From Thalassobaculum sp. OXR-137 (GTDB lineage Bacteria; Pseudomonadota; Alphaproteobacteria; Thalassobaculales; Thalassobaculaceae): a stretch of 64,000 bases of DNA. Where the stretch lies: the NCBI RefSeq assembly GCF_034377285.1, contig NZ_CP139715.1:930001-994000 (forward strand), in the 5' to 3' direction. A program made the position numbers and the translations under genes. This document shows, piece by piece, positions 29,693 to 50,554 of the stretch; the first letter of the stretch is position 1; each line of letters begins with the position of its first letter. The notes below the pieces were generated by a model, which did no database searches, was not told the DNA's origin, and was given only the letters and a program-made list of their open reading frames with translations.

Positions 29693-30475
29693 ATGCGGCA
29701 TATATTTATAGATGAAGCTGGCACCAGCGCGGGAGAGCCGGTTACGGTTGTCGCCGGAGTAATAATACGTTCCGACTGCCACTGGCGTCAGTTAGACGAA
29801 TACTTATTGACTATCATAAAGAGGCACATTCCTGAACAGTATCAGGATGGTTTCGTTTTTCATGCGAAGGATATTTCTGCAGGAAATGGTATATTTAGCG
29901 ATCGCAATTTGTGGCCTCCAAAAAGACGATGGGACATCATTAAGGACGTGCTAAGGGCAAACCGTGAAATTGGATATGACATTGTGCTCGGTATTGTGCG
30001 CAAGGACAAAGAAACCAAGTTAACACCAGCGCAAGAAGCTCACATTCGGCATTTATCCGCGTTTGCTCATTGCCTGACTGGGGTCGAACTATTCTTAAAA
30101 AATCTAGCATCAGATGAAATTGCCACGGTGGTAATTGAAGATATACCAGAGCGCCGAAAGCATCTGAAAGAGGTTCAGCAGGATATGCTGAACCCGTCCG
30201 ACAACGCTCCGTGGGATCGCAATGCCGTTCCCTTACGGCATATCGTTCAAACACCGCTATTTGCCGAGAAAGCCGACTCGCGCCATTTGCAGTATGCAGA
30301 TGCTTGTTCGTTTGCGATGCGCGGATACTGCGCCGGCTTTAAAGGTTTCGATCAGTTGGTTTCAGAGATGTTGGTGTCCGGTTCGGTTCAGATAATGCCA
30401 CAAGACAAAGACTTCGGTCACTTCTTGATCACCACCGTCGATCTGCGAACTGGTCAGATTGCCGCGCGCGGTTAG
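29693..30475 (+). CDS. DUF3800-family protein, probably horizontally acquired
   Basis: A 260-residue protein with the DUF3800 layout: FIDEAGTS at residues 5-12 (the Asp/Glu motif of the family), VTVVAGVIIRSDCHW, FHAKDI, then an acidic residue-bearing VVIEDIPERRKH and the C-terminal QYADACSFAMRGYC. The family is functionally uncharacterised; an RNase-H-like nuclease fold has been suggested for it, and members often occur in mobile or variable regions. Base composition is visibly AT-richer and codon use unlike all neighbours (TTA, ATA, AAA are frequent). ATG supported by AAGGTGA five bases upstream. Confidence 0.85.
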   Translation: MRHIFIDEAGTSAGEPVTVVAGVIIRSDCHWRQLDEYLLTIIKRHIPEQYQDGFVFHAKDISAGNGIFSDRNLWPPKRRWDIIKDVLRANREIGYDIVLGIVRKDKETKLTPAQEAHIRHLSAFAHCLTGVELFLKNLASDEIATVVIEDIPERRKHLKEVQQDMLNPSDNAPWDRNAVPLRHIVQTPLFAEKADSRHLQYADACSFAMRGYCAGFKGFDQLVSEMLVSGSVQIMPQDKDFGHFLITTVDLRTGQIAARG

Positions 30476-35015: not shown

Positions 35016-35507
35016 TCAGACCCGCTCGTACAGATAGATCCGCCCCGGCTTCACGCCCTGAGGGAGCGGCAGGGCCCTGAATTCCGCGACGCCGTCGAGC
35101 GGCTGGTCGCTGACCACCACGCCGCCAGACGCCAGCAGGTCCGCCACCAGCGGGGCGGCGCGCTGGGACAGGGAGACGCTTTCGTCCTTGTCGCCGGTGC
35201 CGATATCCATATGCGCCAGCACCGCACGGCCGGAGAGATCGGCGATCGCCGCCGGCAGGGTGTCGAACAGGTCGCCTAGATACAGCCGGTCCTCGGGCGG
35301 GATGCAGTCCGGATGGGCGGCGACCTGGCGGTCGAACACGTAGATCTCCCGGTCCGGCAGGATCGAGCGCAGGTGGTCGTAGGTCCGGCCGTTGCCGAGC
35401 CCGAATTCCAGCGCGATGCCGGGCCGGCCCTCCACCCGGGCGGCAGCGTCGTTGAGGGTGGCGCGCTGGGCTTCCAGGCGCCGGATCATGCTGTCCAGTC
35501 TGCTCAT
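35016..35507 (-). CDS. Small SAM-dependent methyltransferase-like protein
   Basis: A 163-residue protein with an N-terminal helix (SRLDSMIRRLEAQRATLNDA) and a compact Rossmann core: IALEFGLGNGRTYDHLRSILPDREIYVFDR contains the SAM-binding glycine motif GLGNG and the acidic strand-2 end; VLAHMDIGTGDKDES follows. It resembles the Methyltransf_17-type family. Substrate unknown. Ten bases after the cyclic-nucleotide-binding gene, third gene of a unit headed by the degenerate ABC protein. Confidence 0.75.
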   Translation of the reverse strand: MSRLDSMIRRLEAQRATLNDAAARVEGRPGIALEFGLGNGRTYDHLRSILPDREIYVFDRQVAAHPDCIPPEDRLYLGDLFDTLPAAIADLSGRAVLAHMDIGTGDKDESVSLSQRAAPLVADLLASGGVVVSDQPLDGVAEFRALPLPQGVKPGRIYLYERV

Positions 35508-35517
35508 CGGCTACGGA

Positions 35518-35964
35518 TCACCGGTTCAGGGCTTCGAGGAGCTGCACGTTGGTGCGCTCCAGACGGGCGGCCAGCTCGCGCATGATCTCGATGGAGATCT
35601 GCGGGAATTCGCTGACCAGGCGGAAGAACAGCTCCTTGGTGATGCGCAGGGTGATCAGCTTGCCGGTCGCTTCCACCGACGCGGTGCGCGGCACGTCGCA
35701 CAGGATGGCGATTTCGCCGACCACGTCGCCCTTGCCCAGTTCGGCGACCTGGATCTCTCCGCTGTCGGTGCGGATGCGGACCGACGCCTCGCCGTCGATG
35801 ATGATGTAGGCCGCATCGCCGATATCGCCCTGCTGGAACAGGCGCTGGCCGTTCTGATAGGTCAGGCGCTCCGACGTGAAGGCCAGCAGCTTCAGCTTCG
35901 ACGGCTCGATCTTCGCGAAGAGCGGTATCTTGCGAAGCAGTTCCACCTCTTCATTGAGGCTCAT
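35518..35964 (-). CDS. Cyclic-nucleotide-binding domain protein
   Basis: A 148-residue stand-alone cNMP-binding domain, without the DNA-binding helix-turn-helix of Crp/Fnr regulators. LLRKIPLFAKIEPSKLKLLAF begins the fold; the phosphate-binding cassette GEIAILCDVPRTASV keeps the ribose Glu (E84) and the phosphate Arg (R93), so real cAMP/cGMP-type binding is plausible. The C-terminal helix (PQISIEIMRELAARLERTNVQLLEAL) may mediate dimers. GGAGGG precedes the ATG. 69 bases downstream of the degenerate ABC gene, it may be its regulatory subunit. Confidence 0.88.
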   Translation of the reverse strand: MSLNEEVELLRKIPLFAKIEPSKLKLLAFTSERLTYQNGQRLFQQGDIGDAAYIIIDGEASVRIRTDSGEIQVAELGKGDVVGEIAILCDVPRTASVEATGKLITLRITKELFFRLVSEFPQISIEIMRELAARLERTNVQLLEALNR

Positions 35965-36033: not shown

Positions 36034-38673
36034 TCAATTTCGCGCAGCAATTTCGTGGAACACCCGACCCTCACGGTCAAGCTCCTCGACCGTCCCGGTT
36101 TCCGCCAGCCGGCCACCCCGCATCACCGAGAGGACCGGGAACAGACGCGCGATATCGGGACGCTGGGTCGACCAGATCACCGTGCGCTCCGCCATGGCCT
36201 CCAGGATATTGGCGACGAGGCGGCGCTGGGCGGCGGCGTCGAAGGTGGCGACCGCGTCGTTCAGCACCAGGATGTCGGGCCGGCGCAGCAGGGCGCGGGC
36301 GATGCCGATCTTCTGCCGCTGCACCGAGGACAGCTTGGCGCCGGCGATGCCGACCTCGAAATCGAGGCCGACCTCCATCACCGTCGGCCGCAGGTCCAGA
36401 TCGTCGAGCACCGAGCCGATCAGCGCGCCGACCCGGGCGACGCTGTCGGCCTGCCCGTAGGCGATCTTGCCGAACAGGATGTTGTCCTGGAGCGAGGCGG
36501 CGGCGTTGTAGGCGTCGGCGCTGAAGAAGGCGACGGATCCCTGCAGCTCGGCCGGCAGGTCGCGGGCGAAGGCGGCGCGGGCCTCCAGAATGCGGGACTG
36601 GATGTCGCCGTCGAGCATGCCCAGGCGGTGGCGGGCCGGGATCAGCTTGAACGGCAGCGACAGCAACCGGGCGCGATCCTCTTCCGGCACCTTGTCCAGG
36701 CCGATGCGCTCGACCCGGTTCAGCAGCGCCTGGAATTCCGGCAGGTCGTCGGGCGAGATGAAACTGAACTGACCGAAGAACTCGTGGTCGGACGGCAGGT
36801 CGGCGAACAGCTCCACCATGGTGGACGCCACGTCGCGGCCCATCTTCAGCAGATCGTCGGTCAGGCCGACGCTCGCCAGCGTGCTGCGCACATAGGGATG
36901 GGCGGCGATGGTCTCCGGCTGGAACGCCGGACCGACGGGCGTGCCGAACAGCAGGTTCTCCGCCATCGTCGCGTTGGTGTTGTAGCGGTCGGCGGCGAAC
37001 GGCTCGACCAGGTCGACCATCTGCGGGTCGTCGGCCAGCCGCTCGGCGAACGACCGGCGCGCCGCAAGGATCCGCTCGGCGATCTGCGGGCGGGCCTCCG
37101 GATCGATGGTGCCGCGCAGGCCGAGGCCGTAGCAGCCGTCGTCCAGCTCCACCAGGGCGAGGTCCGAGACGATGCGGGCGACCAGCCCGTCGCCGTCGCC
37201 CAGCGCTTCTGGGTCGACCCACGGACCGCCCGCATCGTCGGTGGAGTTCGCCGCCTGGGCCGCGGTCTCCAGGGCGGCGCGGATCGCCGGATCGTCCCGG
37301 GCCGGGCCGGTCGGCCGGTGCATCACCCCGAGCAGCAGGTTCTCGCGGATGGTCGAGCTGAACACGTAGGTCGACGGCCCCACATACCCCATGCGCCGTC
37401 CGGTGATCGCCTCCGGCAGGGTCTGCAGGTCCGCCTGACCAATGGTGATCTTGCCGCTGGTCGGATGCATCAGCCGGGCGATGGTCATCGCCAGCGCCTC
37501 GCTGCCGCCGCCGCCCGTCCCGAACAGGGCCATATGCGTGCCCGGCGGCACGGCCAGCGCCACGCCTTCGAACTGCACGTCGCCGTCGTCGTCCACCAGG
37601 CCGAGATTGCTGGTCCGTAGTTCGCCGTCCAGCGGCTGTGGGGTCTCCGGCTCGGCCACCAGCGTCTCCGCCGGCGTCATGTCGGTCAGGTCGAACTGGT
37701 CGATCACCTGCTCGTACTTGATGCGGGCGTCTTCCTTCTGCTGATAGTAGTTCAGCAGTTCCTTCCAGGGCGCCGAGAGGTCCTTGTAGGCCGCCAGCAC
37801 GGCGACCAGCGCGCCGAGCGACAGGCTGCCCATGATCACCAGATACCCGCCGATCGCGTAGAAGAAGAACGGGGTGAGCTGGGCGATGAAGTTGTTCAGG
37901 AACTTGATGACGAACTTGCGCCGGTAGATCTCGAAGCGGATGTCGTAGATCACCCCGAGCTGGGCGGAGAACCGGGCGAGCATCAGCCGGGCCAGGTTGT
38001 TGGCGTGGATCTCCTGGACGCCGGAGATCGTCTCGCCGATGCGGTCCGACAGGACCCGGACCGTACGGACCCGTTGCTTGCCGAGCGCGTTCACCCGGCG
38101 CTGCAGCTTGGGGATCACATAGGCCTGCACCGGCGACAGGGCGATGGCCGCCGCCCCCAGGATCGGGTCCTGCATGAACATGAAGAACAGGATGGTGATC
38201 AGCGTCCCGCCCTGAAACGCCGGCAACGAGATGGAATCGCCGATGAAGCCGCCCAGGGGTTCGACCTCCTGGGTGACCATCGGGATGATCTCGCCCTGGC
38301 TGACCCGGCGAAAATGCGGGAGCGGAAACCGCAGGATGCGGGTGTAGAGCTCGTAGCGCAGTCGGCGCAGCATCAGCTCGCCCAGGCGGCCGCGATAGAC
38401 GTTGATCCAGTATTTGAAGCCGCCGTTGATGAAGACCAGAACCAGGAACAGTCCCGACAGGGTCCACAGATACTCGAGTTGCTGGAACTCGATGCCGAGG
38501 AAGGTGACAGGGAACTCGGTCTGTCCCTTCGCACCCAGCGCCTCGTTGACGATGCGCTTGGGAAGGTCGAGCGAATAATAAAGAAACGGGAACGAAATGA
38601 ATGTCATCACGAGCAGGATGATCTGCTCGCGTTTCGAATAGCGCAGAATGAAGCGGTAGATCGTGGATTCCAT
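36034..38673 (-). CDS. ABC-exporter-like protein with degenerate ATPase domain and a large repeated insertion
   Basis: The ATG at 38673 gives 879 residues. Residues 1-320 form a six-helix ABC-exporter membrane domain. From 365 comes an ABC-type domain that has lost its motifs: Walker A is GTGGGGS (385-391; Lys replaced by Ser), the Q-loop reads YVGPST, the signature is LSSVQ (781-785), Walker B is ILVLND (801-806; Asp to Asn, Glu to Asp), and the H-loop His is Gln (WSTQRPD). About 280 residues (450-730) are inserted between the Q-loop and the signature, with repeats of an xENLLFG element. ATP hydrolysis is not expected. First gene of a unit with the cNMP-binding and methyltransferase genes. 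A helical scaffold or gated transporter is possible. Confidence 0.8.
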   Translation of the reverse strand: MESTIYRFILRYSKREQIILLVMTFISFPFLYYSLDLPKRIVNEALGAKGQTEFPVTFLGIEFQQLEYLWTLSGLFLVLVFINGGFKYWINVYRGRLGELMLRRLRYELYTRILRFPLPHFRRVSQGEIIPMVTQEVEPLGGFIGDSISLPAFQGGTLITILFFMFMQDPILGAAAIALSPVQAYVIPKLQRRVNALGKQRVRTVRVLSDRIGETISGVQEIHANNLARLMLARFSAQLGVIYDIRFEIYRRKFVIKFLNNFIAQLTPFFFYAIGGYLVIMGSLSLGALVAVLAAYKDLSAPWKELLNYYQQKEDARIKYEQVIDQFDLTDMTPAETLVAEPETPQPLDGELRTSNLGLVDDDGDVQFEGVALAVPPGTHMALFGTGGGGSEALAMTIARLMHPTSGKITIGQADLQTLPEAITGRRMGYVGPSTYVFSSTIRENLLLGVMHRPTGPARDDPAIRAALETAAQAANSTDDAGGPWVDPEALGDGDGLVARIVSDLALVELDDGCYGLGLRGTIDPEARPQIAERILAARRSFAERLADDPQMVDLVEPFAADRYNTNATMAENLLFGTPVGPAFQPETIAAHPYVRSTLASVGLTDDLLKMGRDVASTMVELFADLPSDHEFFGQFSFISPDDLPEFQALLNRVERIGLDKVPEEDRARLLSLPFKLIPARHRLGMLDGDIQSRILEARAAFARDLPAELQGSVAFFSADAYNAAASLQDNILFGKIAYGQADSVARVGALIGSVLDDLDLRPTVMEVGLDFEVGIAGAKLSSVQRQKIGIARALLRRPDILVLNDAVATFDAAAQRRLVANILEAMAERTVIWSTQRPDIARLFPVLSVMRGGRLAETGTVEELDREGRVFHEIAARN

Positions 38674-38914
38674 CGCCCCGGTGACCTGTATCCTCGACCT
38701 GGAATGCTGGGATCGCCCCGCCGCGGTCCGCCGCCCTCTTCCCCCGGCGCGCCGCGAGGGTCGATCTTGCGGCGGAAGGCCGATCGGTGCAATGGCAAGC
38801 TGCGTCAAAAGGTTACCATTTCTCGGGAAGACGCTATGTGCCATAGTGCGGCCCACATCGGCCTCCGCCAGAATCTCCACATTTTCGGGCAGCGATGACA
38901 GCGACGGGGAACCC

Positions 38915-40165
38915 ATGACCAAGACCAAGGCCCCCGCGCCCGCCAGGCCGCTCGCGGACGGCTCGGCAGCCCGGATCCTCATGTACAGCCATGACACGAT
39001 GGGGCTGGGGCATTTGCGCCGGTGCCGTGCCATCGCCCATGCCCTGGTCGAGGATCATCCGGGCCTGTCGGTGCTGATCCTGTCGGGCTCGCCGATCATC
39101 GGAAGTTTCGATTTCCGCACCCGGGTCGATTTCGTCCGCATTCCCGGCGTCATCAAGCTGCGCAACGGCGACTACACCTCGCTCTCCCTGCATCTCGACA
39201 TCGAGGAGACGGTGGCCCTGCGCAGCGCCATCATCCGCCACACCGCCGAGGTGTTCGATCCCGACCTGTTCATCGTCGACAAGGAACCGCTCGGCCTGCG
39301 CGGCGAGGTCAAGGACACGCTGGAACTGCTGAAGGAGCGCGGCACGCCGCTGGTCCTGGGCATGCGCGACGTGATGGACGAGCCCGAACAGCTGGAGCAG
39401 GAGTGGGAGCGCAAGAAGGTGCTGCCGGCGCTCCAGGACCTCTACGACGAGGTCTGGGTCTACGGCGTGAAGGAGGTCTGCGATCCGTATGAGGGTCTGG
39501 ACATCCCGGCCGAGATCAAGCTGAAGACCCGCTATACCGGCTATCTGCGCCGCTCGGTCTCGCGGGCGCCGAGCCCGTCCTCCGCCCTGCCCTTCGGCGA
39601 CGATCCGTTCATCCTGGTGACCGCAGGCGGCGGCGGCGACGGCGAGCAGGTGATGGACTGGGTGCTGCGCGCCTATGAGGAGGACCAGCAGCTTCCCTAT
39701 CCGGCCCTGCTGGTGCTCGGCCCCTTCATGGTCCAGGAGCAGCAGCACGAGTTCATGGAGCGGGCGAGCAAGCTCGACCGGGTGGAGGCGATCACCTTCG
39801 ACAGCCGGATCGAGACGCTCATGGCCCGCTGCGCCGGCATGGTGGCGATGGGCGGCTACAACACGTTCTGCGAGATCCTGTCCTTCGACAAACGGTCGAT
39901 CGTCGTGCCCCGGACCGAGCCGCGCCTGGAGCAGTTCATCCGTGCCCGGCGGGCCGAGGAGCTGGGTCTGCTGCGCATGCTGGTGGACGACGGCGACCGC
40001 GATCCCAAGCGCATGGCCGCCGCCCTGCGCGAGCTGCCTGGCCAGAAGATCCCGTCCCAGGCCAAGGCCCTGGCCATGCTGAACGGGTTGGACCAGGTCG
40101 GCAGGCTGACCGACCGCTGGATCGAAGAGCGGCGGCGCTCCAAATCGGCACGCCGGACGGCCTGA
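38915..40165 (+). CDS. COG4671/MurG-like glycosyltransferase
   Basis: 416 residues from the ATG at 38915. A Rossmann-type GT-B N-terminal half starts RILMYSHDTMGLGHLRRCRAIAHAL, the glycine-rich entry of MurG-like enzymes. The C-terminal half has FILVTAGGGGDGEQVMDWVL, DSRIETLMARCAGMVAMGGYNTFCEILSF and VPRTEPRLEQFIRARRAEELG, the donor-nucleotide-binding pattern. Sugar donor and acceptor are unknown. It starts 241 bases from the divergent ABC-like gene and is followed two bases later by the first GT4 gene. A homologous gene occurs at 43144. Confidence 0.85.
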   Translation: MTKTKAPAPARPLADGSAARILMYSHDTMGLGHLRRCRAIAHALVEDHPGLSVLILSGSPIIGSFDFRTRVDFVRIPGVIKLRNGDYTSLSLHLDIEETVALRSAIIRHTAEVFDPDLFIVDKEPLGLRGEVKDTLELLKERGTPLVLGMRDVMDEPEQLEQEWERKKVLPALQDLYDEVWVYGVKEVCDPYEGLDIPAEIKLKTRYTGYLRRSVSRAPSPSSALPFGDDPFILVTAGGGGDGEQVMDWVLRAYEEDQQLPYPALLVLGPFMVQEQQHEFMERASKLDRVEAITFDSRIETLMARCAGMVAMGGYNTFCEILSFDKRSIVVPRTEPRLEQFIRARRAEELGLLRMLVDDGDRDPKRMAAALRELPGQKIPSQAKALAMLNGLDQVGRLTDRWIEERRRSKSARRTA

Positions 40166-40167
40166 CC

Positions 40168-41466
40168 ATGACCCTGATCGCCGAGAACGACGCGGCGGGC
40201 CGCGGGGGCCTTCCCGGCAAGGTCGGAATCGTGCTGAAAGGCTATCCCCGCCTGTCGGAGACCTTCATCGCCCAGGAGATCCTGGGCCTGCAGGAGCGCG
40301 GGCTGGATTTCCGCATCATCTCGCTGCGCCATCCCACCGACAAGGCGACCCACCCGGTGCACGACGCGATCGCAGCACCGGTGGACTACCTGCCGGAATA
40401 CCTGACCGACGACCTGCGCCGGGTCCGGCGCGGCTGGGCGGCGGCGCGCCGCCTGCCGGGATACGGCAAGGCGCTGCGGACCTGGCTGCGCGACCTGATG
40501 CGCGATCCGACGCCGAACCGGGGCCGACGCTTCGGCCAGGCTTGCGTCCTGGCGGCCGAACTGGATCCGTCGATCACCCATCTCTACGCCCATTTCCTGC
40601 ACACCCCCGCCTCGGTCGCGCGCTATGCCGCGATGATGCGCGGGATCACCTGGTCGGTGTCGGCCCATGCCAAGGACATCTGGACCACCCCGGCCTGGGA
40701 GAAGCGGGAGAAGCTCGCCGATGCCGACTGGGCGGTGACCTGCACGGCGATCGGCGCGCGCCACCTGGCCGACCTCGCCCCCGAGCCGGCCCGGGTCAGC
40801 CTGCTGTATCACGGGCTCGACGCGTCCGGCTTTCCGCCGCCCGGCCCGCGCTCCAAGCGCGACGGCCGCGACCCCGACGCCCCGGTCATCATCGTGTCGG
40901 TCGGGCGGGCGGTGCAGAAGAAGGGCTATGACGACGTGCTCGCCGCCCTGCGGGCGCTGCCGGACGGCGTGAACTGGCGCTTCATCCATATCGGCGGGGG
41001 CGCCCTCGCCTTCCGGCTGAAGCAGGCGGCCGACATCATGGGCCTGTCCGACCGGATCGAGTGGCGCGGCGCCCAGCCCCGCTCGGGCGTGATCGAGGCC
41101 CTGGCCGAAGCCGACATCTTCGTCCTCGCCAGCAAGATCGCCCCGGACGGCGACCGCGACGGCCTGCCCAACGTGCTGATGGAAGCCCAGCTCATGACCC
41201 TGCCGGTGGTGGCCACCTCGGTCTCCGCCATCCCCGAGCTGATCGACGACCGGGTCAACGGCCGGCTGGTGAAGCCGGGGGATCACCCGGCCCTGGCCAA
41301 GGCGCTGGAGGATCTGATCGGCGATCCGTCCGCCCGGCTGCGGCTGGCGGCGGCCGGGCGCGCCCGGGTCATCACCGAGTTCTCCGCCGATGCGGGGATC
41401 GACCGGCTGGCGGCAAAATTCGGCCTGCCGTCCGCACGGGCCGAGGGCCGGCCCGACGCGGCGTGA
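40168..41466 (+). CDS. GT4-family glycosyltransferase
   Basis: 432 residues. The N-terminal GT-B domain includes LKGYPRLSETFIAQEILGL, typical of exopolysaccharide GT4 enzymes, and SVSAHAKDIW. The C-terminal donor-binding domain has IVSVGRAVQKKGYDDVLAAL, HIGGGALAF, the E-x7-E region ASKIAPDGDRDGLPNVLMEAQLMTLPVVATSVSAIPEL. Retaining transfer of a nucleotide sugar is expected; the sugar is unknown. Stop overlaps the next GTG start. Confidence 0.9.
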   Translation: MTLIAENDAAGRGGLPGKVGIVLKGYPRLSETFIAQEILGLQERGLDFRIISLRHPTDKATHPVHDAIAAPVDYLPEYLTDDLRRVRRGWAAARRLPGYGKALRTWLRDLMRDPTPNRGRRFGQACVLAAELDPSITHLYAHFLHTPASVARYAAMMRGITWSVSAHAKDIWTTPAWEKREKLADADWAVTCTAIGARHLADLAPEPARVSLLYHGLDASGFPPPGPRSKRDGRDPDAPVIIVSVGRAVQKKGYDDVLAALRALPDGVNWRFIHIGGGALAFRLKQAADIMGLSDRIEWRGAQPRSGVIEALAEADIFVLASKIAPDGDRDGLPNVLMEAQLMTLPVVATSVSAIPELIDDRVNGRLVKPGDHPALAKALEDLIGDPSARLRLAAAGRARVITEFSADAGIDRLAAKFGLPSARAEGRPDAA

Positions 41467-42560
41467 GGATCGCCTTCCACGCCCCTCTGAAGACCCCGGA
41501 TTCGGCCGTCCCCTCCGGGGATCGACAGGTCGCGCGCCTGCTGATGGCCGCCCTCGCCCAAGCCGGCCACCAGGTCGATCTCGCCACCCGGCTGCGCACC
41601 CGCGACGGCACCGGCGACGTCACCCGGCAGGCCCGGCTGGCCGAGCTCGGAACCCGGCTGGCGGGGCGCTACCTGCGGCTGGTCGCCGAAGGCCGGCGGC
41701 CGCGCCCGGACCTCTGGTTCACCTATCACCTCTACTACAAGGCGCCCGACCTGATCGGGCCGTTGGTCGCCTCGGCACTGGGCATCCCCTATGTGGTCGC
41801 CGAGGCGTCGGTGGCCCATAAGCGGGCCGGCGGTCCCTGGGACCAGGGACACCGGGCGACCCTGACCGCCCTCGCCCGCGCCGATCTCGTGATCGGGCTG
41901 AATCCCCATGACCGGGTGCTGGTGCAGCCCTGCCTGAAGGACGGCGCGCACTATCTCGACCTGCCACCGTTCCTGGAGGTCGAGGGCCCGCCCCCGCCCG
42001 AGCGGCCGGACCGCCCGGCGGAACTGCTGGCGGTCGGCATGATGCGGGCGGGCGACAAGCTGGCCTCCTACCGGGTGCTGGGCGAGGCCCTCGTCCGGGT
42101 GCCCGGCGACTGGCGGCTGACCGTGGTCGGAGACGGCCCCGCCAGGGCGGAGGTGGAGGCGGCCCTGGCCCCGGTGGCCGGGCGGGTGACCTGGCGCGGT
42201 GCCCTGGACGCGGCCGAATTGGAGGCCGCCTATCGGGCCGCCGACCTGCTGGTCTGGCCCGCCGTGAACGAGGCCTACGGCATGGCCCTGCTGGAGGCCC
42301 AGGCGGCGGGTCTGCCGGTGGTGGCCGGCGATACCGGCGGGGTGTCCGCCATCGTGCGGGACGGCGAGACGGGGCTGCTGGTCCCGGTGGGCGCGCCCGA
42401 TCCCTTCGCCGAGGCGGTGGCCGGCCTGGTGCAGGACTCCGCGCGACGTCGCGCCCTGGGCGCCAACGCCGCCGCCGTCACCCGGACCGAGCACGGCCTG
42501 CCCGCTGCCGCGGCGACCCTGGACGCGGCATTGCGGCCGCTGGTGGAGCGGGCGCGATGA
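41463..42560 (+). CDS. GT4-family glycosyltransferase
   Basis: GTG at 41463 overlaps the preceding stop (GTGA); 365 residues. The N-terminal part is RIAFHAPLKTPDSAVPSGDRQVARLLMAAL. The C-terminal half shows LAVGMMRAGDKLASYRVLGEAL, VVGDGPARAEVEAAL and the GT4 signature WPAVNEAYGMALLEAQAAGLPVVAGDTGGV. Acceptor and donor unknown. It is coupled to genes on both sides, placing it in one glycan-assembly transcription unit. Confidence 0.9.
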   Translation: MRIAFHAPLKTPDSAVPSGDRQVARLLMAALAQAGHQVDLATRLRTRDGTGDVTRQARLAELGTRLAGRYLRLVAEGRRPRPDLWFTYHLYYKAPDLIGPLVASALGIPYVVAEASVAHKRAGGPWDQGHRATLTALARADLVIGLNPHDRVLVQPCLKDGAHYLDLPPFLEVEGPPPPERPDRPAELLAVGMMRAGDKLASYRVLGEALVRVPGDWRLTVVGDGPARAEVEAALAPVAGRVTWRGALDAAELEAAYRAADLLVWPAVNEAYGMALLEAQAAGLPVVAGDTGGVSAIVRDGETGLLVPVGAPDPFAEAVAGLVQDSARRRALGANAAAVTRTEHGLPAAAATLDAALRPLVERAR

Positions 42561-43147
42561 CCCGGCTCGCCCTGCTGCGCCACGGCCCGACCGCGTGGAA
42601 CGCCGAGAAGCGGCTGCAGGGCCGGGCCGACCAGCCGCTCTCCCCGGACGGCGAGGCGCAGGTGCGCACCTGGACCCTGCCGCCGGATCTCTCCGGTTTC
42701 CGCTGGCTGACCAGCCCGCTGATCCGCGCCCGGCGCACCGCCGCGCTGATCGGCGTGGAAGCAACGGAGGAGCCCGCCGCCATCGAGCTCGATTTTGGCG
42801 CCTGGGAGGGCCGCCGCCTGTCGGAGATCCGGGCGGAGGACCCGGACGGCACGGCGGCGAACGAGGCCCGCGGGGTGGACTTCACCCCCCCCGGCGGCGA
42901 GAGCCCGCGCGCCGTGCAGGCCCGGCTCGCCCCGCTGCTCGCCAAGCTGGCGGCGGAGGACAGGGACACGGGGATCGTCACCCATAAAGGCGTCATCCGC
43001 GCCCTGTTGTCCCTGGCCACCGGATGGCCGATGGTCGATAAGCCGCCGGTGAAACTGTTCTGGGACCGGGTGCATTTGTTCGACCTCGCCGCCGACGGCA
43101 CGCCGCGCCTGACCCAGCCCAACCTGCCCCTGAAGGCCGACCGATGA
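42557..43147 (+). CDS. Histidine phosphatase (phosphoglycerate mutase-like) family protein
   Basis: 196 residues. The phospho-acceptor histidine is H9 in LALLRHGPTAWN; the rest of the phosphate pocket is LTSPLIRARRTAALIG, FGAWEGRRL, and the second His in IVTHKGVIRALL. Such proteins dephosphorylate sugar phosphates, alpha-ribazole phosphate or others. Its place between two glycosyltransferase genes, with four-base overlaps on both sides, suggests a sugar-phosphate or glycan-intermediate substrate. Confidence 0.88.
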   Translation: MTRLALLRHGPTAWNAEKRLQGRADQPLSPDGEAQVRTWTLPPDLSGFRWLTSPLIRARRTAALIGVEATEEPAAIELDFGAWEGRRLSEIRAEDPDGTAANEARGVDFTPPGGESPRAVQARLAPLLAKLAAEDRDTGIVTHKGVIRALLSLATGWPMVDKPPVKLFWDRVHLFDLAADGTPRLTQPNLPLKADR

Positions 43148-44301
43148 CCCGACCTGTCGTCATGCTCTACGTCCAGAACCTGCTCGGCATCGGCCATCTG
43201 CGCCGGGCCGCGGCGGTGGCCCGGGCCCTGGTGACGGCCGGCGCCGACGTGGCCTTCGTGTCGGGCGGGATGCCGGTGCCGCACCTGCCGCTCGGCGGGG
43301 CGAAGATGGTGCAGCTCCCGCCGATCCGCACCGAGGACGGCAACTTCAAGGTGCTGCTGGACGAGACCGACAAGCCGGTCGACGACGCGTTCCGCGACGC
43401 CCGGCGCGACCGGCTGCTCGCCCTGTTCGAGGAGCTGCGGCCGGCGGCCCTGATCACCGAGCTGTTCCCGTTCGGCCGCCGGCAGATGCGCTTCGAGCTG
43501 ATCCCGCTGCTGGAACGGGCGCGGCAGGCCGACTGGCACCCTCAGGTCTTCTCCTCCATGCGCGACATCCTGGTCACCAAGCCGCGGCGCGACCGCAACC
43601 AGGAGATCGTCGATACCCTCAACGCCTATTACGACGCCGCCCTGATCCATTCCGACCCGGAGCTGATCCGGCTGGACCGCACCTTCCCCATGGCCGCCGA
43701 GATCACGGTGGAGCAGCACTACACCGGCTATGTGGTCAACGCCGACGACATCGCCGTGCCGGAGGCCGATCCGGCGGCGACCGGCGAGGTGCTGGTCTCC
43801 GCCGGCGGCGGCGCGGTGGGCGACCGGTTCATGCCGGCGGTGGCGCGGCTGATCCCCGACCTGCCCCTGGCCGACCGGCCCTGGCGGCTGGTGACCGGCC
43901 ATCACATGCCCGCCTCCGCCCTGGCGCAGATCGAGGCCGCCGTGCCGGCCAACGCGGTGATCGAGCGCAGCGTGCCTAACCTGCCCGAGCTGATGGCCGG
44001 CGCCGCCCTGTCGGTCTCCCAGGCCGGCTACAACACCCTGCTGGAGCTGCTGGCCGCGCGCACCCGGGCGGTGGTCGTGCCCTACGAGGGCGGGGTGGAG
44101 ACCGAGCAGCGGCTGCGCGCCGACCTGCTGGCCGATGTCGGCGCCCTGGAAGTGGTGGCCGAGGACGATCTCTCCGCCGAGACGCTGGGGGCGGCGATGG
44201 AGCGGGCCCGGGCACGGTCGCGCGACGCGGTGCCGAGCGTCGATCTGGACGGCGCGCGCAAGACCGCCGCCTATGTCATGGACCGCCTCGTCCGGCGATG
44301 A
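43144..44301 (+). CDS. COG4671/MurG-like glycosyltransferase
   Basis: 385 residues, homologous in layout to the protein from 38915. VVMLYVQNLLGIGHLRRAAAVARAL opens the GT-B fold; EITVEQHYTGYVVN lies at the domain junction; VLVSAGGGAVGDRFMPAVARL and NLPELMAGAALSVSQAGYNTLLELLAARTRAVVVPYEGG carry the donor-binding signature. Having two relatives at the two ends of the cluster suggests successive transfers in one pathway. Overlaps neighbours by four bases at each end. Confidence 0.85.
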   Translation: MTRPVVMLYVQNLLGIGHLRRAAAVARALVTAGADVAFVSGGMPVPHLPLGGAKMVQLPPIRTEDGNFKVLLDETDKPVDDAFRDARRDRLLALFEELRPAALITELFPFGRRQMRFELIPLLERARQADWHPQVFSSMRDILVTKPRRDRNQEIVDTLNAYYDAALIHSDPELIRLDRTFPMAAEITVEQHYTGYVVNADDIAVPEADPAATGEVLVSAGGGAVGDRFMPAVARLIPDLPLADRPWRLVTGHHMPASALAQIEAAVPANAVIERSVPNLPELMAGAALSVSQAGYNTLLELLAARTRAVVVPYEGGVETEQRLRADLLADVGALEVVAEDDLSAETLGAAMERARARSRDAVPSVDLDGARKTAAYVMDRLVRR

Positions 44302-45065
44302 GCGCACTGAACACCCTGGCGGCCCATCTGGACCGGCGCGGCGAGACGGGCCGGCCGCTGCTCCTGTGGTGGCGCGACGACGATCTGGAGACGCCGTCGG
44401 CCGAACTGTCGGTCTGCCTGGACGCCCTCCACGCCGCCGGGATCGCCGCGGCCTTCGCCGCCATCCCCAGCGGCCTGACGCCTGCGGCGGTGGCGGCCCT
44501 GGACGGTACCGGAGCGGCGCTGTTCGTCCATGGCTGGGCCCATACCGACCACGCGCCGGCAGGCGAGAAGAAATCCGAATACGGCCCGGCACGGCCCGTC
44601 GCAGAGCGGCTGGAGGAGATCGCCCGGGGGCGGGAGGCGGTGGAAGCGATCGGCGGGGACAGGGCCTTTGCCTGCTTCGTGCCGCCCTGGAACCGGATCG
44701 GGGACGACCTGCTTCCCGAACTGGGGGCCGCCGGGATCCTGGCCTTGTCCGCGTTCGCCCCGCCGAGGCGCGCGGCGCCGGCGGCCGCGGTGCCCAGGCT
44801 CGATACCCATGTGGACCTGATCGACTGGCGCGGCACCGGCAAGCCGGTCTCCGGCGACGGCTTCGTGGCACGGCTTTTTGAACACGACGGGGTGGACGGA
44901 CCGGTCGGAATCCTGTCCCATCACCGCGTCACCGACCGGCGGGCATGGACCGACTGGGCGCCGCTTCTGCGGCTGCTGTCGGACCACCCCGCGGTGCGGT
45001 GGCTTTCCCCGGGCGACGCGCTTGCCCGGGTGGGTGTTGAACCGGGGAAACGGAGGTGCTTGTGA
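44298..45065 (+). CDS. Polysaccharide deacetylase-like protein
   Basis: 255 residues. The NodB-type features are an Asp cluster D27-D29 in LLLWWRDDDLE, the His motif VHGWAHTDHAP, the FVPPWNRIGDDL motif and a late His in GILSHHRVTD. It has no signal peptide, so it would act in the cytoplasm, unlike most NodB-family deacetylases. The metal triad looks present but permuted relative to the classical order, so activity is probable, not certain. Part of the overlapping glycan gene chain. Confidence 0.78.
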   Translation: MSALNTLAAHLDRRGETGRPLLLWWRDDDLETPSAELSVCLDALHAAGIAAAFAAIPSGLTPAAVAALDGTGAALFVHGWAHTDHAPAGEKKSEYGPARPVAERLEEIARGREAVEAIGGDRAFACFVPPWNRIGDDLLPELGAAGILALSAFAPPRRAAPAAAVPRLDTHVDLIDWRGTGKPVSGDGFVARLFEHDGVDGPVGILSHHRVTDRRAWTDWAPLLRLLSDHPAVRWLSPGDALARVGVEPGKRRCL

Positions 45066-45706: not shown

Positions 45707-47596
45707 TTGGATCGCTCAACGCCGCTGCTGCGCGTGCACGACCTGCGGATCGGGTTCGATCTGCCGGAAGGCCGGCTCGTGGCGGTGGACGGCGTGTCGT
45801 TCCAGATCCGCCGCGGGAGCACCGTCGCCCTGGTCGGCGAGTCCGGCTCCGGCAAGTCGGTGGTCAGCCAGGCGATCATGGGGCTGCTGCCGCGCCCGGC
45901 GAAGATCCTGGGCGGCTCGATCCTGTTCGCCGATCCGGAGAAGCCCGGCACCATCACCGACATCGTCCGCCTGCCGGTCGACGGCCGCGAGATGCGCGAC
46001 CTGCGCGGCGGGCGGATCTCCATCATCTTCCAGGAGCCGATGACGTCCCTGTCGCCGCTGCACACGGTCGGCAACCAGATCCGCGAGGCGCTGGAGCTGC
46101 ACCGCGACGTCTCGGCCCGCGAGGCGACGGAGCTGACCCGCGACATGCTGGCCCTGGTCGGTTTCCCCGATCCGGACCGGGCGCTGAAGACCTATCCGTT
46201 CGAGCTGTCCGGCGGGCTGCGCCAGCGGGCGATGATCTCCATGGCCCTGGTCTGCCGCCCCGCCCTGCTGATCGCTGACGAGCCGACCACCGCCCTCGAC
46301 GTCACGATCCAGGCGCAGATCCTGAAGCTGATCAAGGATCTGCAGTCCGAGCTGAACATGGCGATGCTGATGATCACCCACGATCTGGGCGTGGTCGCCA
46401 ACGTGGCCGAGGAAGTGGTGGTGATGTATCGCGGTCGGATCATGGAATCCGGCGACGTGGACGACATCTTCCGTCGGCCGCAGCATCCGTATCTCAAGGC
46501 CCTGATGGGGGCGGTGCCGCGCTTCGACATGGCGCCGGGCGAGCGTCTGAAGCCGCTGCGCGAGATCCAGACCGAGACCGGGCACCTGCTGGCCGACCGG
46601 CCGAAGGCCACGACGGCCGACAACGCGCCGATGCTGGCGGTCGAAGGGGTGACCAAGGCCTATACCATCCGCAAGGGCGGCTGGGTCTCGACCTCCCGCA
46701 AGTCGATCAAGGCGCTGCACGACGTGTCCTTCACCGTGCAGCCGGGCGAATGCCTCGGCCTGGTGGGCGAGTCCGGCTGCGGCAAGACAACCCTGTCCAA
46801 GGTGATCATGCGGGCGCTGACGCCGGACGCCGGCAAGGTGACCTTCACCGACGAAACCGGGCCGACCGACGTCCTCGCCCTCGACGGCAACCGGCTGACG
46901 GAGTTCCGCCAGAAGCTGCAGTTCGTCTTCCAGGACCCGTTCTCCTCGCTCAATCCGCGGATGACGGTGTACGACATCATCGCCGAACCCCTGGTGATCC
47001 ACGGCATCGGCGATCCGGCCTGGCGGCGCGAGATGGTGTCGGAACTGATGCGCCTGGTCGGGCTCGACGTGCGCCACCTGAACCGCTACCCGCACAGCTT
47101 CTCCGGCGGCCAGCGCCAGCGCATCGGCATCGCCCGGGCGCTTGCCCTGAAGCCGAAGATGCTGATCTGCGACGAGCCGGTCTCCGCGCTGGACGTGTCG
47201 ATCCAGGCCCAGGTGCTGAACCTGCTGAAGGACCTGAAGGAAAAGCTCGGCCTGACCTATCTCTTCATCAGCCACAATCTGGCGGTGGTCGACTACGTGG
47301 CCGACCGCATCGCGGTGATGTGCGCCGGCCAGATCGTCGAGCTGGCGCCGCGCGAGGCGCTGTTCCGCGACCCGGTGCACCCCTATACCCAGGCGCTGCT
47401 GGCGGCCGTCCCGGACCCGGATCTGGACAATCCGCTGGACTTCGACGCGGTGATGGACGGCCGCGCCTCCAACCCCGCCGCCTGGCCGGCGCCGTTCACG
47501 GTCGACGACAGCCACGCGCCGGGCTTCGTCGAGCTCGGGGACGGCCATTTCGTGCGCGCCGATCCAGGGATCCTGAACCTGAGGCTGGCCTCATGA
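45707..47596 (+). CDS. Peptide/oligosaccharide ABC importer, fused double ATPase
   Basis: 629 residues from a TTG start at 45707, supported by GGAGGGGG nine bases upstream. Two complete ABC domains are fused, DppD-like then DppF-like. The first has Walker [10 protein letters not shown], signature LSGGLRQR and Walker [13 protein letters not shown]; the second has [19 protein letters not shown] and [12 protein letters not shown]-terminal regions after each Walker B carry the oligopeptide-type extension ([27 protein letters not shown]). It energises import through the two permeases encoded downstream. YejF-like fusion architecture. Unlike the protein at 36034, all motifs are intact. Confidence 0.93.
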
Positions 47597-49555: not shown

Positions 49556-50554
49556 GTGCTCGACTATCTCGCCCGCCGGATCCTGGTGATGATCCCGACG
49601 CTGATCGCGATCAGCATCATCACCTTCATCATCATCCAGCTTCCGCCGGGCGACTACCTGTCGACCCTGATCGCCGAGATGGAAAGCCAGGGCGAGGCGG
49701 TCGATCCGGCCAAGATCCAGGCCCTGCGCGCCCAGTACGGCCTCGACAGGCCGATGTGGGAGCAGTACGTGGTCTGGGCCGTGGGCATGCTGCGCGGCGA
49801 TTTCGGCTACAGCTTCGAATACCAGCTTCCGGTGAGCGACGTGGTCGGCGACCGGGTGCTGATGACCATCGTGCTGAACTTCAGCACGATCCTGTTCATC
49901 TATCTGGTCTCGTTCCCGATCGGGATCTACTCCGCCACCCACCAGTACAGCGTCGGCGATTACGGCCTGACCTTCCTCGGCTTCCTGGGGCTGGCGACGC
50001 CCAACTTCCTGCTGGCGCTGATCCTGCTCTACTTCGCCAATGTCTGGTTCGGCACGTCGATCGGCGGACTGATGGACCCGTCCTACATCGACCAGCCCTG
50101 GAGCCTCGGCAAGGTGATGTCGGTGCTGGAGCACCTGTGGGTGCCGGTGGTGGTGATCGGCACCGCCGGGACGGCGGCGATGATCCGCCGGCTGCGGGCC
50201 AACCTGCTGGACGAGTTGCAGAAGCAATACGTGGTGACCGCCCGGGCCAAGGGGCTGCCGCCGTTCCGGGCGCTGATGAAATATCCGCTGCGCATGGCCA
50301 TGAACCCGTTCATCGCCGATATCGGCAACATGCTGCCCCAGGTGGTGTCCGGGTCGGCCGTGGTGTCGATGGTGCTGTCCCTGCCGACCACCGGGCCGAT
50401 GCTGATCGGCGCGCTGCAGAGCCAGGACATGTATCTGGCCGGGTCGTTCCTGATGTTCCTGGCGACCCTGACGGTGGTCGGCATGCTGATCTCCGACCTG
50501 GCGCTCGCCTGGCTCGACCCGCGGATCCGGCTGGGCGGAGGAACCGCGCGATGA
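49556..50554 (+). CDS. ABC importer permease, DppB/OppB-like
   Basis: 332 residues with GTG start. First membrane helix LARRILVMIPTLIAISIITFI is typical of DppB-type permeases, a periplasmic loop with LRAQYGLDRPMWEQYVVW follows, and the EAA-like coupling loop reads VVTARAKGLPPFRALMKYP near residues 223-241. Six membrane helices. Thirteen bases after the binding protein and overlapping the next permease by four. Confidence 0.93.
   Translation: MLDYLARRILVMIPTLIAISIITFIIIQLPPGDYLSTLIAEMESQGEAVDPAKIQALRAQYGLDRPMWEQYVVWAVGMLRGDFGYSFEYQLPVSDVVGDRVLMTIVLNFSTILFIYLVSFPIGIYSATHQYSVGDYGLTFLGFLGLATPNFLLALILLYFANVWFGTSIGGLMDPSYIDQPWSLGKVMSVLEHLWVPVVVIGTAGTAAMIRRLRANLLDELQKQYVVTARAKGLPPFRALMKYPLRMAMNPFIADIGNMLPQVVSGSAVVSMVLSLPTTGPMLIGALQSQDMYLAGSFLMFLATLTVVGMLISDLALAWLDPRIRLGGGTAR

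Follow-up and report, generated by a model that had tools for sequence, protein, structure and literature searches.

Can a protein built like an ATP-binding cassette (ABC) exporter be maintained by selection once its catalytic residues are gone, and what would it then do? The question is raised by a gene in a 64,000-nucleotide stretch of the Thalassobaculum sp. OXR-137 genome (contig NZ_CP139715.1, positions 930,001 to 994,000; hereafter, the window). An initial annotation of the window had described its 879-residue product, P0001, as exporter-like with every nucleotide-binding motif degraded, and had proposed that the gene is not decaying but encodes a functional pseudo-ATPase. To our knowledge, the known exceptions to ABC exporters as ATP-driven machines come mainly from eukaryotes and retain one or more nucleotide sites. 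We use psABC as a working name for this pseudo-ABC exporter family; residue numbers are those of P0001 and coordinates are window positions. Sequence comparisons show the loss of catalytic residues, purifying selection, an insert with an internal repeat, linkage and repeated fusion to a cyclic nucleotide-binding domain (CNBD), and a conserved gene cluster. Our leading reading, held tentatively and at slightly less than an even chance, is that psABC descends from an ABC exporter but now works in the membrane as a gate or scaffold independent of ATP, under the control of a CNBD partner that senses nucleotides. The parts of the gene, which encodes a transmembrane domain (TMD) followed by an interrupted nucleotide-binding domain (NBD), are as follows.

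36034..38673, minus strand: psABC, pseudo-ABC exporter P0001, 879 aa; frame open from the ATG at 38673
37684..38673, minus strand: TMD of ABC exporter type, residues 1-330; PF00664 at residues 54-294
37324..37641, minus strand: N-terminal NBD half, residues 345-450, from motif alignment to exporters
37495-37521, minus strand: degenerate Walker A, from motif alignment
37360-37386, minus strand: degenerate Q-loop, from motif alignment
36379..37323, minus strand: insert separating the Q-loop from the signature, residues 451-765
36037..36378, minus strand: C-terminal NBD half, residues 766-879, from motif alignment to exporters
36310-36333, minus strand: signature LSSVQ, from motif alignment
36253-36273, minus strand: Walker B LNDA, from motif alignment
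36157-36174, minus strand: H-loop TQRP, from motif alignment

psABC is a member of the ABC exporter superfamily by descent. ABC_membrane (E = 3.4e-20, residues 54-294) and ABC_tran (E = 6.1e-13, in two stretches) match the same chain, both passing the Pfam cut-off, and the former bears out the ordinary exporter membrane half of the initial annotation. The TMD is the best-conserved part of the family, with a mean column entropy of 1.48 bits versus 2.04-2.08 bits elsewhere. A canonical NBD is uninterrupted and about 240 residues long. That of psABC is split by the 315-residue insert at residues 451-765, which was placed by means of a 103-row family alignment and is absent from the exporters aligned with psABC (P-glycoprotein and same-genome exporters). 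The initial annotation had missed both the insert and the CNBD gene downstream.

The motif columns were checked against P-glycoprotein and genuine exporters of the same genome, and the alignment confirmed that every nucleotide-binding motif is degraded. In the columns where the same-genome exporter L003 carries GPSGAGKST, SQE, LSGGQ, LLLDEA and AHR, psABC has a Walker A of GTGGGGSEA (Lys391 replaced by Ser, Ser/Thr392 by Glu), a Q-loop of GPS (Gln433 by Pro), a signature of LSSVQ, a Walker B of LNDA within VLNDA (Asp805 by Asn, Glu806 by Asp) and an H-loop of TQRP (His837 by Gln). The window protein thus has none of the hallmarks of an active ABC ATPase, namely GxxGxGK[ST], LSGGQ, the Walker B Asp with the catalytic Glu, and the Q-loop Gln with the H-loop His.

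Such a pattern could come from a single damaged or decaying gene, an explanation to which we give virtually no credence. The ratio of nonsynonymous to synonymous substitution rates (dN/dS, Nei-Gojobori) between psABC and three relatives of 84-92% identity is 0.12, 0.15 and 0.15 overall, and by part it is 0.05-0.12 for the TMD, 0.17-0.23 for the N-terminal NBD, 0.15-0.17 for the insert and 0.10-0.22 for the C-terminal part. The gene is kept under purifying selection. Stops, frameshifts or a dN/dS near 1 were not seen in the window copy, most of the listed matches are stop-free, and the neighborhood is conserved. On the other side, a few relatives carry in-frame stops: G007 (locus L014) has one TGA, G244 one TGA and one TAG, and G715 one TGA; these may be damage or sequencing error. 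Decay was rejected on the strength of the dN/dS values, the conservation of the family and the conserved neighborhood.

Whole genomes were searched for the family at E ≤ 1e-60. Matches were found in 33 of 61 near genomes and in 131 of 385 alphaproteobacterial genomes sampled class-wide, usually one per genome and mostly full length; these genome matches include a few partials at contig ends, and G356 has a TMD-only match alone. Phylum-wide, 29 of 398 genomes matched, 28 of them from the same class, the one outside being encoded on a 3-kb contig and consisting of the TMD only. In a plasmid collection, 339 records matched, mostly Rhizobium and Sinorhizobium, and 262 of these cover at least 80% of the query. 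psABC is carried on plasmids of Rhizobium johnstonii 3841 and Sinorhizobium meliloti 2011, and an ATP-free role of the exporter fold would thus be directly open to genetics in model rhizobia. Separately, the match in NC_003078.1 (S. meliloti 1021 pSymB, about 841.7-844.4 kb) exceeds that in most other S. meliloti records, 2011 included, by one base. Where the plasmid rows examined give gene names, these are ABC transporter, ATP-binding or transmembrane protein, and the annotation 'ABC transporter ATP-binding protein' on many psABC records is probably misleading. Literature searches, restricted to open-licence papers, found no description of the family, which is a weak negative.

The catalytic residues were then tallied over 103 full-length rows. 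The alignment, which drew on a subset of the genome-search matches, started from the window and 123 loci, of which 7 were dropped as duplicates, 8 as partial or TMD-only rows and 6 as ordinary ABC loci (L003-L008) ahead of the tally. LSGGQ and a complete catalytic set each occur in 0 of 103 members, and the tally rules out that motif loss is confined to one copy. The Ser/Thr after the Walker A Lys is the Mg-binding residue of active enzymes; in psABC this position holds Ser/Thr in 6 members and Asp/Glu in 79. The Q-loop Gln is present in 18 members, the H-loop His in 33 and the Walker B Asp in 19, the other 84 lacking it, with Asn in 67. Among NBD-core columns, those of the Walker A Ser/Thr, the Q-loop Gln, both signature Gly residues, the Glu and the His show median or poorer conservation, while Gly407, Gly778, Asn445, Arg793 and Pro799 are nearly fixed across the family NBDs. 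In a TMD tree, the minimum number of state changes is 20 for Lys391, 19 for Ser/Thr392 (scored as Ser/Thr, acidic or other), 13 for Asp805, 19 for Glu806 and 17 for His837; this is a quick tree with many weak forks, and the counts are approximate and lack a canonical-family control. The pattern of frequent changes looks like relaxed catalytic constraint. Together with the dN/dS values, the absence of a full catalytic set from all 103 members supports the functional pseudo-ATPase of the initial annotation over a decaying gene, as judged from sequence.

If psABC has no working site of its own, it could be the degenerate half of an asymmetric heterodimer in which a canonical exporter subunit encoded elsewhere supplies one, as in TM287/288 or TmrAB. 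Heterodimers that carry a single degenerate site are familiar (PMC7756269), the genome encodes other ABC exporters, and single-chain TmrAB and TM287/288 give the highest template modeling (TM) scores by target length (0.56-0.64) among the 50 Foldseek hits listed for a psABC model. We nevertheless consider this highly improbable. All five motifs are changed, and with Walker A and signature degenerate in one chain, both composite sites of such a dimer would be affected. An exporter-type neighbor with TMD and NBD was found in just 1 of 35 loci (L127), the other nearby ABC ATPases matching the NBD only, and a canonical partner half in the cluster was rejected on this count; the genome elsewhere was not searched for a partner.

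The psABC model mentioned above is an AlphaFold single-chain model made from 16 sequences, with a mean predicted local distance difference test score (pLDDT) of 75.8 and a predicted TM score (pTM) of 0.66. By ten-residue blocks, pLDDT is 81-93 in most of the NBD core and 54-88 in the insert and falls to 35 in parts of the TMD, which is modeled as long helices, with stretches 149-166 and 296-304 below 50. The NBD of the model carries a large additional helical surface. Foldseek placed P-glycoprotein entries first by E-value, but with lower TM-scores; single chains of TmrAB, TM287/288, BmrCD and MsbA scored 0.56-0.64 by target length at a root-mean-square deviation of 13-17 Å among the listed hits. 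In sequence searches of the PDB, the best 60 hits were distant exporters, with no psABC family member among them.

The insert is partly a tandem duplication: family columns 525-640 match columns 675-780 over 84 columns (hhalign, E = 1.1e-17). The segment after the Q-loop shares the end motif more weakly, over 32 columns with the third copy (E = 1.6e-5) and 11 columns with the second, which suggests that the start of a helical subdomain (motif ENLLFG) is present three times in psABC.

36943-36972 and 36469-36498, minus strand: ENLLFG-type repeat segments within the insert
37327-37356, minus strand: weaker ENLLFG likeness directly before the insert

As a separate observation, L092 (in G300), G736 and G739 have a longer spacer just past the Q-loop segment, and their matches break at about residues 455-475.

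The strongest of the new findings concerns the gene directly downstream.

35518..35964, minus strand: CNBD protein, 148 aa, partner gene of psABC; PF00027, E = 4.8e-19

A CNBD accompanies psABC in 101 of 102 relatives, lying downstream on the same strand in 90 and fused to the C-terminus in 11. Where the two are separate (n = 90), the median spacing between match ends is 55 bases and the largest 625. Fusion accounts for two changes on the TMD tree. In L049 it was confirmed by Pfam, and a GGDEF domain lies behind the CNBD; this chain (L049:8001-11618) thus holds TMD, pseudo-NBD, CNBD and GGDEF, the last with a motif that looks degenerate by eye. The phosphate-binding cassette of the partner is intact. 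In known CNBDs, its residues hold phosphate and ribose; Gly83, Arg93 and Ala99 occur in 47 of 47 aligned rows, and Glu84 is found in 41 and replaced by Asp in 6. Five of the 47 rows are duplicates, and the set was drawn from long-flank and fused loci, not from all 102 relatives. Among the 61 near genomes, a class III cyclase was found in 33 of 33 with psABC versus 16 of 28 without it (Fisher p = 1.7e-5, uncorrected for kinship or genome size). In Rhizobium johnstonii and in one pSymB of Sinorhizobium meliloti, the cluster adjoins a gene annotated as adenylate/guanylate cyclase.

We hypothesize that psABC, most likely as a homodimer in the inner membrane, no longer hydrolyzes ATP and that its NBDs would now serve as a structural and regulatory module for docking or relay. 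The CNBD protein would sense a cyclic or related nucleotide, dock on the enlarged pseudo-NBD and set the state of psABC, which may act as a gate or assembly platform for a glycan or glycolipid made by the adjoining glycosyltransferases. The scaffold, channel or regulated transporter put forward in the initial annotation is likewise an inference. What makes psABC unusual is that a large bacterial family appears to have largely lost catalytic constraint while selection was kept, with a nucleotide-sensor domain almost always tied to it.

Several known systems invite comparison. The exporters MsbA, TmrAB and TM287/288 (PF00664 and PF00005) share with psABC the fold, the domain order and sequence similarity over the TMD and both NBD halves; psABC differs in catalytic motifs that are lost or free to vary, in the 315-residue NBD insert and in its CNBD partner. 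CFTR and the sulfonylurea receptors (ABCC) are exporter folds turned channel or regulator in which one or more sites still work or bind, and they resemble the proposed psABC in the non-pump use of an exporter scaffold. In psABC, by contrast, the putative homodimer would have two degenerate sites and, presumably, a CNBD protein as its regulator. The review of degenerate sites covers CFTR and exporters retaining one working site (PMC7756269). The cyanobacterial ABC exporter HetC likewise bears a CNBD, which is reported to be needed for function and to bind ppGpp, without protection by cyclic AMP (PMC10986499). Unlike psABC, HetC is described there as a peptidase-type exporter with an essential ATPase residue and an N-terminal CNBD. 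The partner CNBD also matches TIGR03896, bacteriocin-type transport-associated CNBD proteins by name, at 1.4e-11 and 44 bits, far under the cut-off of 161; unlike these, it is a single-domain protein tied to psABC.

What the gate or platform might serve is indicated by the neighboring genes.

35016..35507, minus strand: S-adenosylmethionine (SAM) methyltransferase, PF12692, with a relative in 16 of 35 loci
38906..40165, plus strand: glycosyltransferase GTa, GT28-like C domain, divergent to psABC
40168..41466, plus strand: glycosyltransferase GTb, GT4, EpsE-like
41463..42560, plus strand: glycosyltransferase GTc, GT4
42557..43147, plus strand: histidine phosphatase family protein
43144..44301, plus strand: glycosyltransferase GTd, GT28-like C domain
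44298..45065, plus strand: weak polysaccharide-deacetylase-like protein (E = 0.0018, 18.7 bits, under the Pfam cut-off of 23.1)
45707..47596, plus strand: cluster end; ATP-binding protein, probably from an oligopeptide-type ABC importer, with two Walker A motifs by eye
49556-50554: BPD_transp_1 permease

The usual order is divergent, with the CNBD gene and psABC on one side and, on the other, three glycosyltransferases, histidine phosphatase, glycosyltransferase, deacetylase-like protein, small protein and ABC importer ATPase. In annotated records, a gene named polysaccharide deacetylase stands at the corresponding place. The importer ATP-binding protein has a relative in 22 of 35 loci, some of these hits being distant ABC ATPases of other kinds. 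Of the 35 long-flank loci, 26 have three or all four of the cluster glycosyltransferases and 1 has two. A nucleotide-sugar dehydrogenase lies near psABC in Shinella, R. johnstonii and Sulfitobacter indolifex. As read from these genes, the neighborhood points to a surface glycan. One paper describes pRL110056 as an O-antigen biosynthesis gene important in root colonization (PMC11103875); a count of genes along the pRL11 record would put it near the psABC cluster, an unmapped placement that is not used as evidence here. No such cluster is annotated near the Ruegeria conchae copy of psABC, and this, together with the loci lacking the cluster, suggests that psABC and the CNBD form the core of the system. 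Elsewhere in the window, a DUF3800 protein (1.9e-9; 29693-30475, plus strand) has no relative in the 36 neighborhood loci and is possibly a recent insertion.

The linkage to cluster glycosyltransferases in 27 of the 35 loci, and the large additional helical surface of the NBD model, would also fit a pure scaffold, in which psABC transports nothing and instead tethers the glycosyltransferases to the membrane until a CNBD signal frees them. We rate this as improbable: the TMD, as the best-conserved part with many invariant residues, seems to be under more constraint than an anchor needs, and some loci lack the glycosyltransferases altogether.

Several observations weigh against an ATP-independent psABC under CNBD control and in the service of a glycan. 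In 8 of 35 loci, no cluster glycosyltransferase was found in the stretch examined, so a glycan role is not universal. In one relative, L118, no CNBD lies within 1500 bases downstream. When the fused relative L049 was folded as a model, its CNBD came out mostly at pLDDT below 50, and no docking site was obtained. As the CNBD of HetC binds ppGpp, the ligand of such a domain is not necessarily a cyclic nucleotide. In the family NBDs, the Walker A Lys is kept in 64 of 103 members and Lys or Arg in 92, the catalytic Glu survives in 54, and conservation at Lys391 and Asp805 is somewhat above that of the median NBD column. ATP binding or low residual activity is therefore possible, and some members may still bind nucleotide. 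Lys, Asp and Glu occur together in three members, L063, L070 and L092, of which L070 is the most complete, with Lys, Thr, Asp, Glu and His present, no Q-loop Gln and a signature of LSGAQ. The initial annotation had held that homologues of the same architecture with an intact Lys/Asp/Glu set would mark the window copy as merely damaged. These three exist, but they are scattered within the tree among relatives without one or more of these residues, and so do not show this. Degeneracy is a family-wide trait, but the frequent survival of the Walker A Lys and the existence of these three members count against a strict reading of the initial annotation.

The nearest rival to our reading follows from the retention of Lys or Arg: the pseudo-NBD may bind ATP, ADP or another nucleotide without catalysis and signal the energy state to the membrane part in the manner of sulfonylurea receptors. 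The glycines of Walker A are kept as well (Gly390 in 95 of 103 members, Gly385 in 93), and the acidic residue that so often follows the Lys is a consistent change and not random loss. Against this, acidic residues at the phosphate-Mg site would be expected to disfavor ATP, most of the signature and Q-loop residues that would surround ATP are lost, and all four species of the window genus that have psABC lack Lys391, with Ser or Asn instead, which goes beyond the family norm. On balance, we consider a non-hydrolyzing nucleotide sensor unlikely, although not markedly so.

The ATP-independent gate or scaffold is further favored by a sister branch that has no NBD. These TMD-only proteins, mostly 400-500 residues long, match about residues 1-325 of psABC at 38-51% identity and end soon after, so that the psABC-family TMD also occurs in chains that lack an NBD, although an ATPase encoded elsewhere might serve it. 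They have short deletions in two intracellular loops, which would be the NBD-docking loops by comparison with exporters and look eroded. An extra N-terminal segment with HxxxH is present in 13 of 15 TMD-only rows and absent in L170 (cut by the contig end) and L171 (not cut). Seven annotated plasmid loci (L152-L158) were picked from a spread list of the 339 matching records; copper genes (copper-binding protein, azurin, multicopper oxidase) lie beside the TMD-only gene in 7 of 7, and a cytochrome c beside most. Among the unannotated loci, L052, L057, L166, L167 and L169 have copper genes and L165 a distant weak copper hit only; none were found at L168 (a 3-kb contig), L170 or L171. Members of this branch thus often lie in copper-resistance islands, and the HxxxH-bearing proteins are possibly a new copper-handling membrane protein. 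Taken together with the CNBD partner, these data allow a bolder proposal, which we regard as speculative and unlikely, though not remote: psABC would be a bacterial counterpart of CFTR and the sulfonylurea receptors, an ATP-free, CNBD-gated channel or lipid/glycan facilitator, with an NBD-shed sister branch that serves copper resistance. If true, ATP-independent use of the exporter fold would be widespread across a bacterial class. The genome of the window itself also encodes a second, distant ABC_membrane-only protein (L164:8901-10130, minus strand) of about 26-27% identity.

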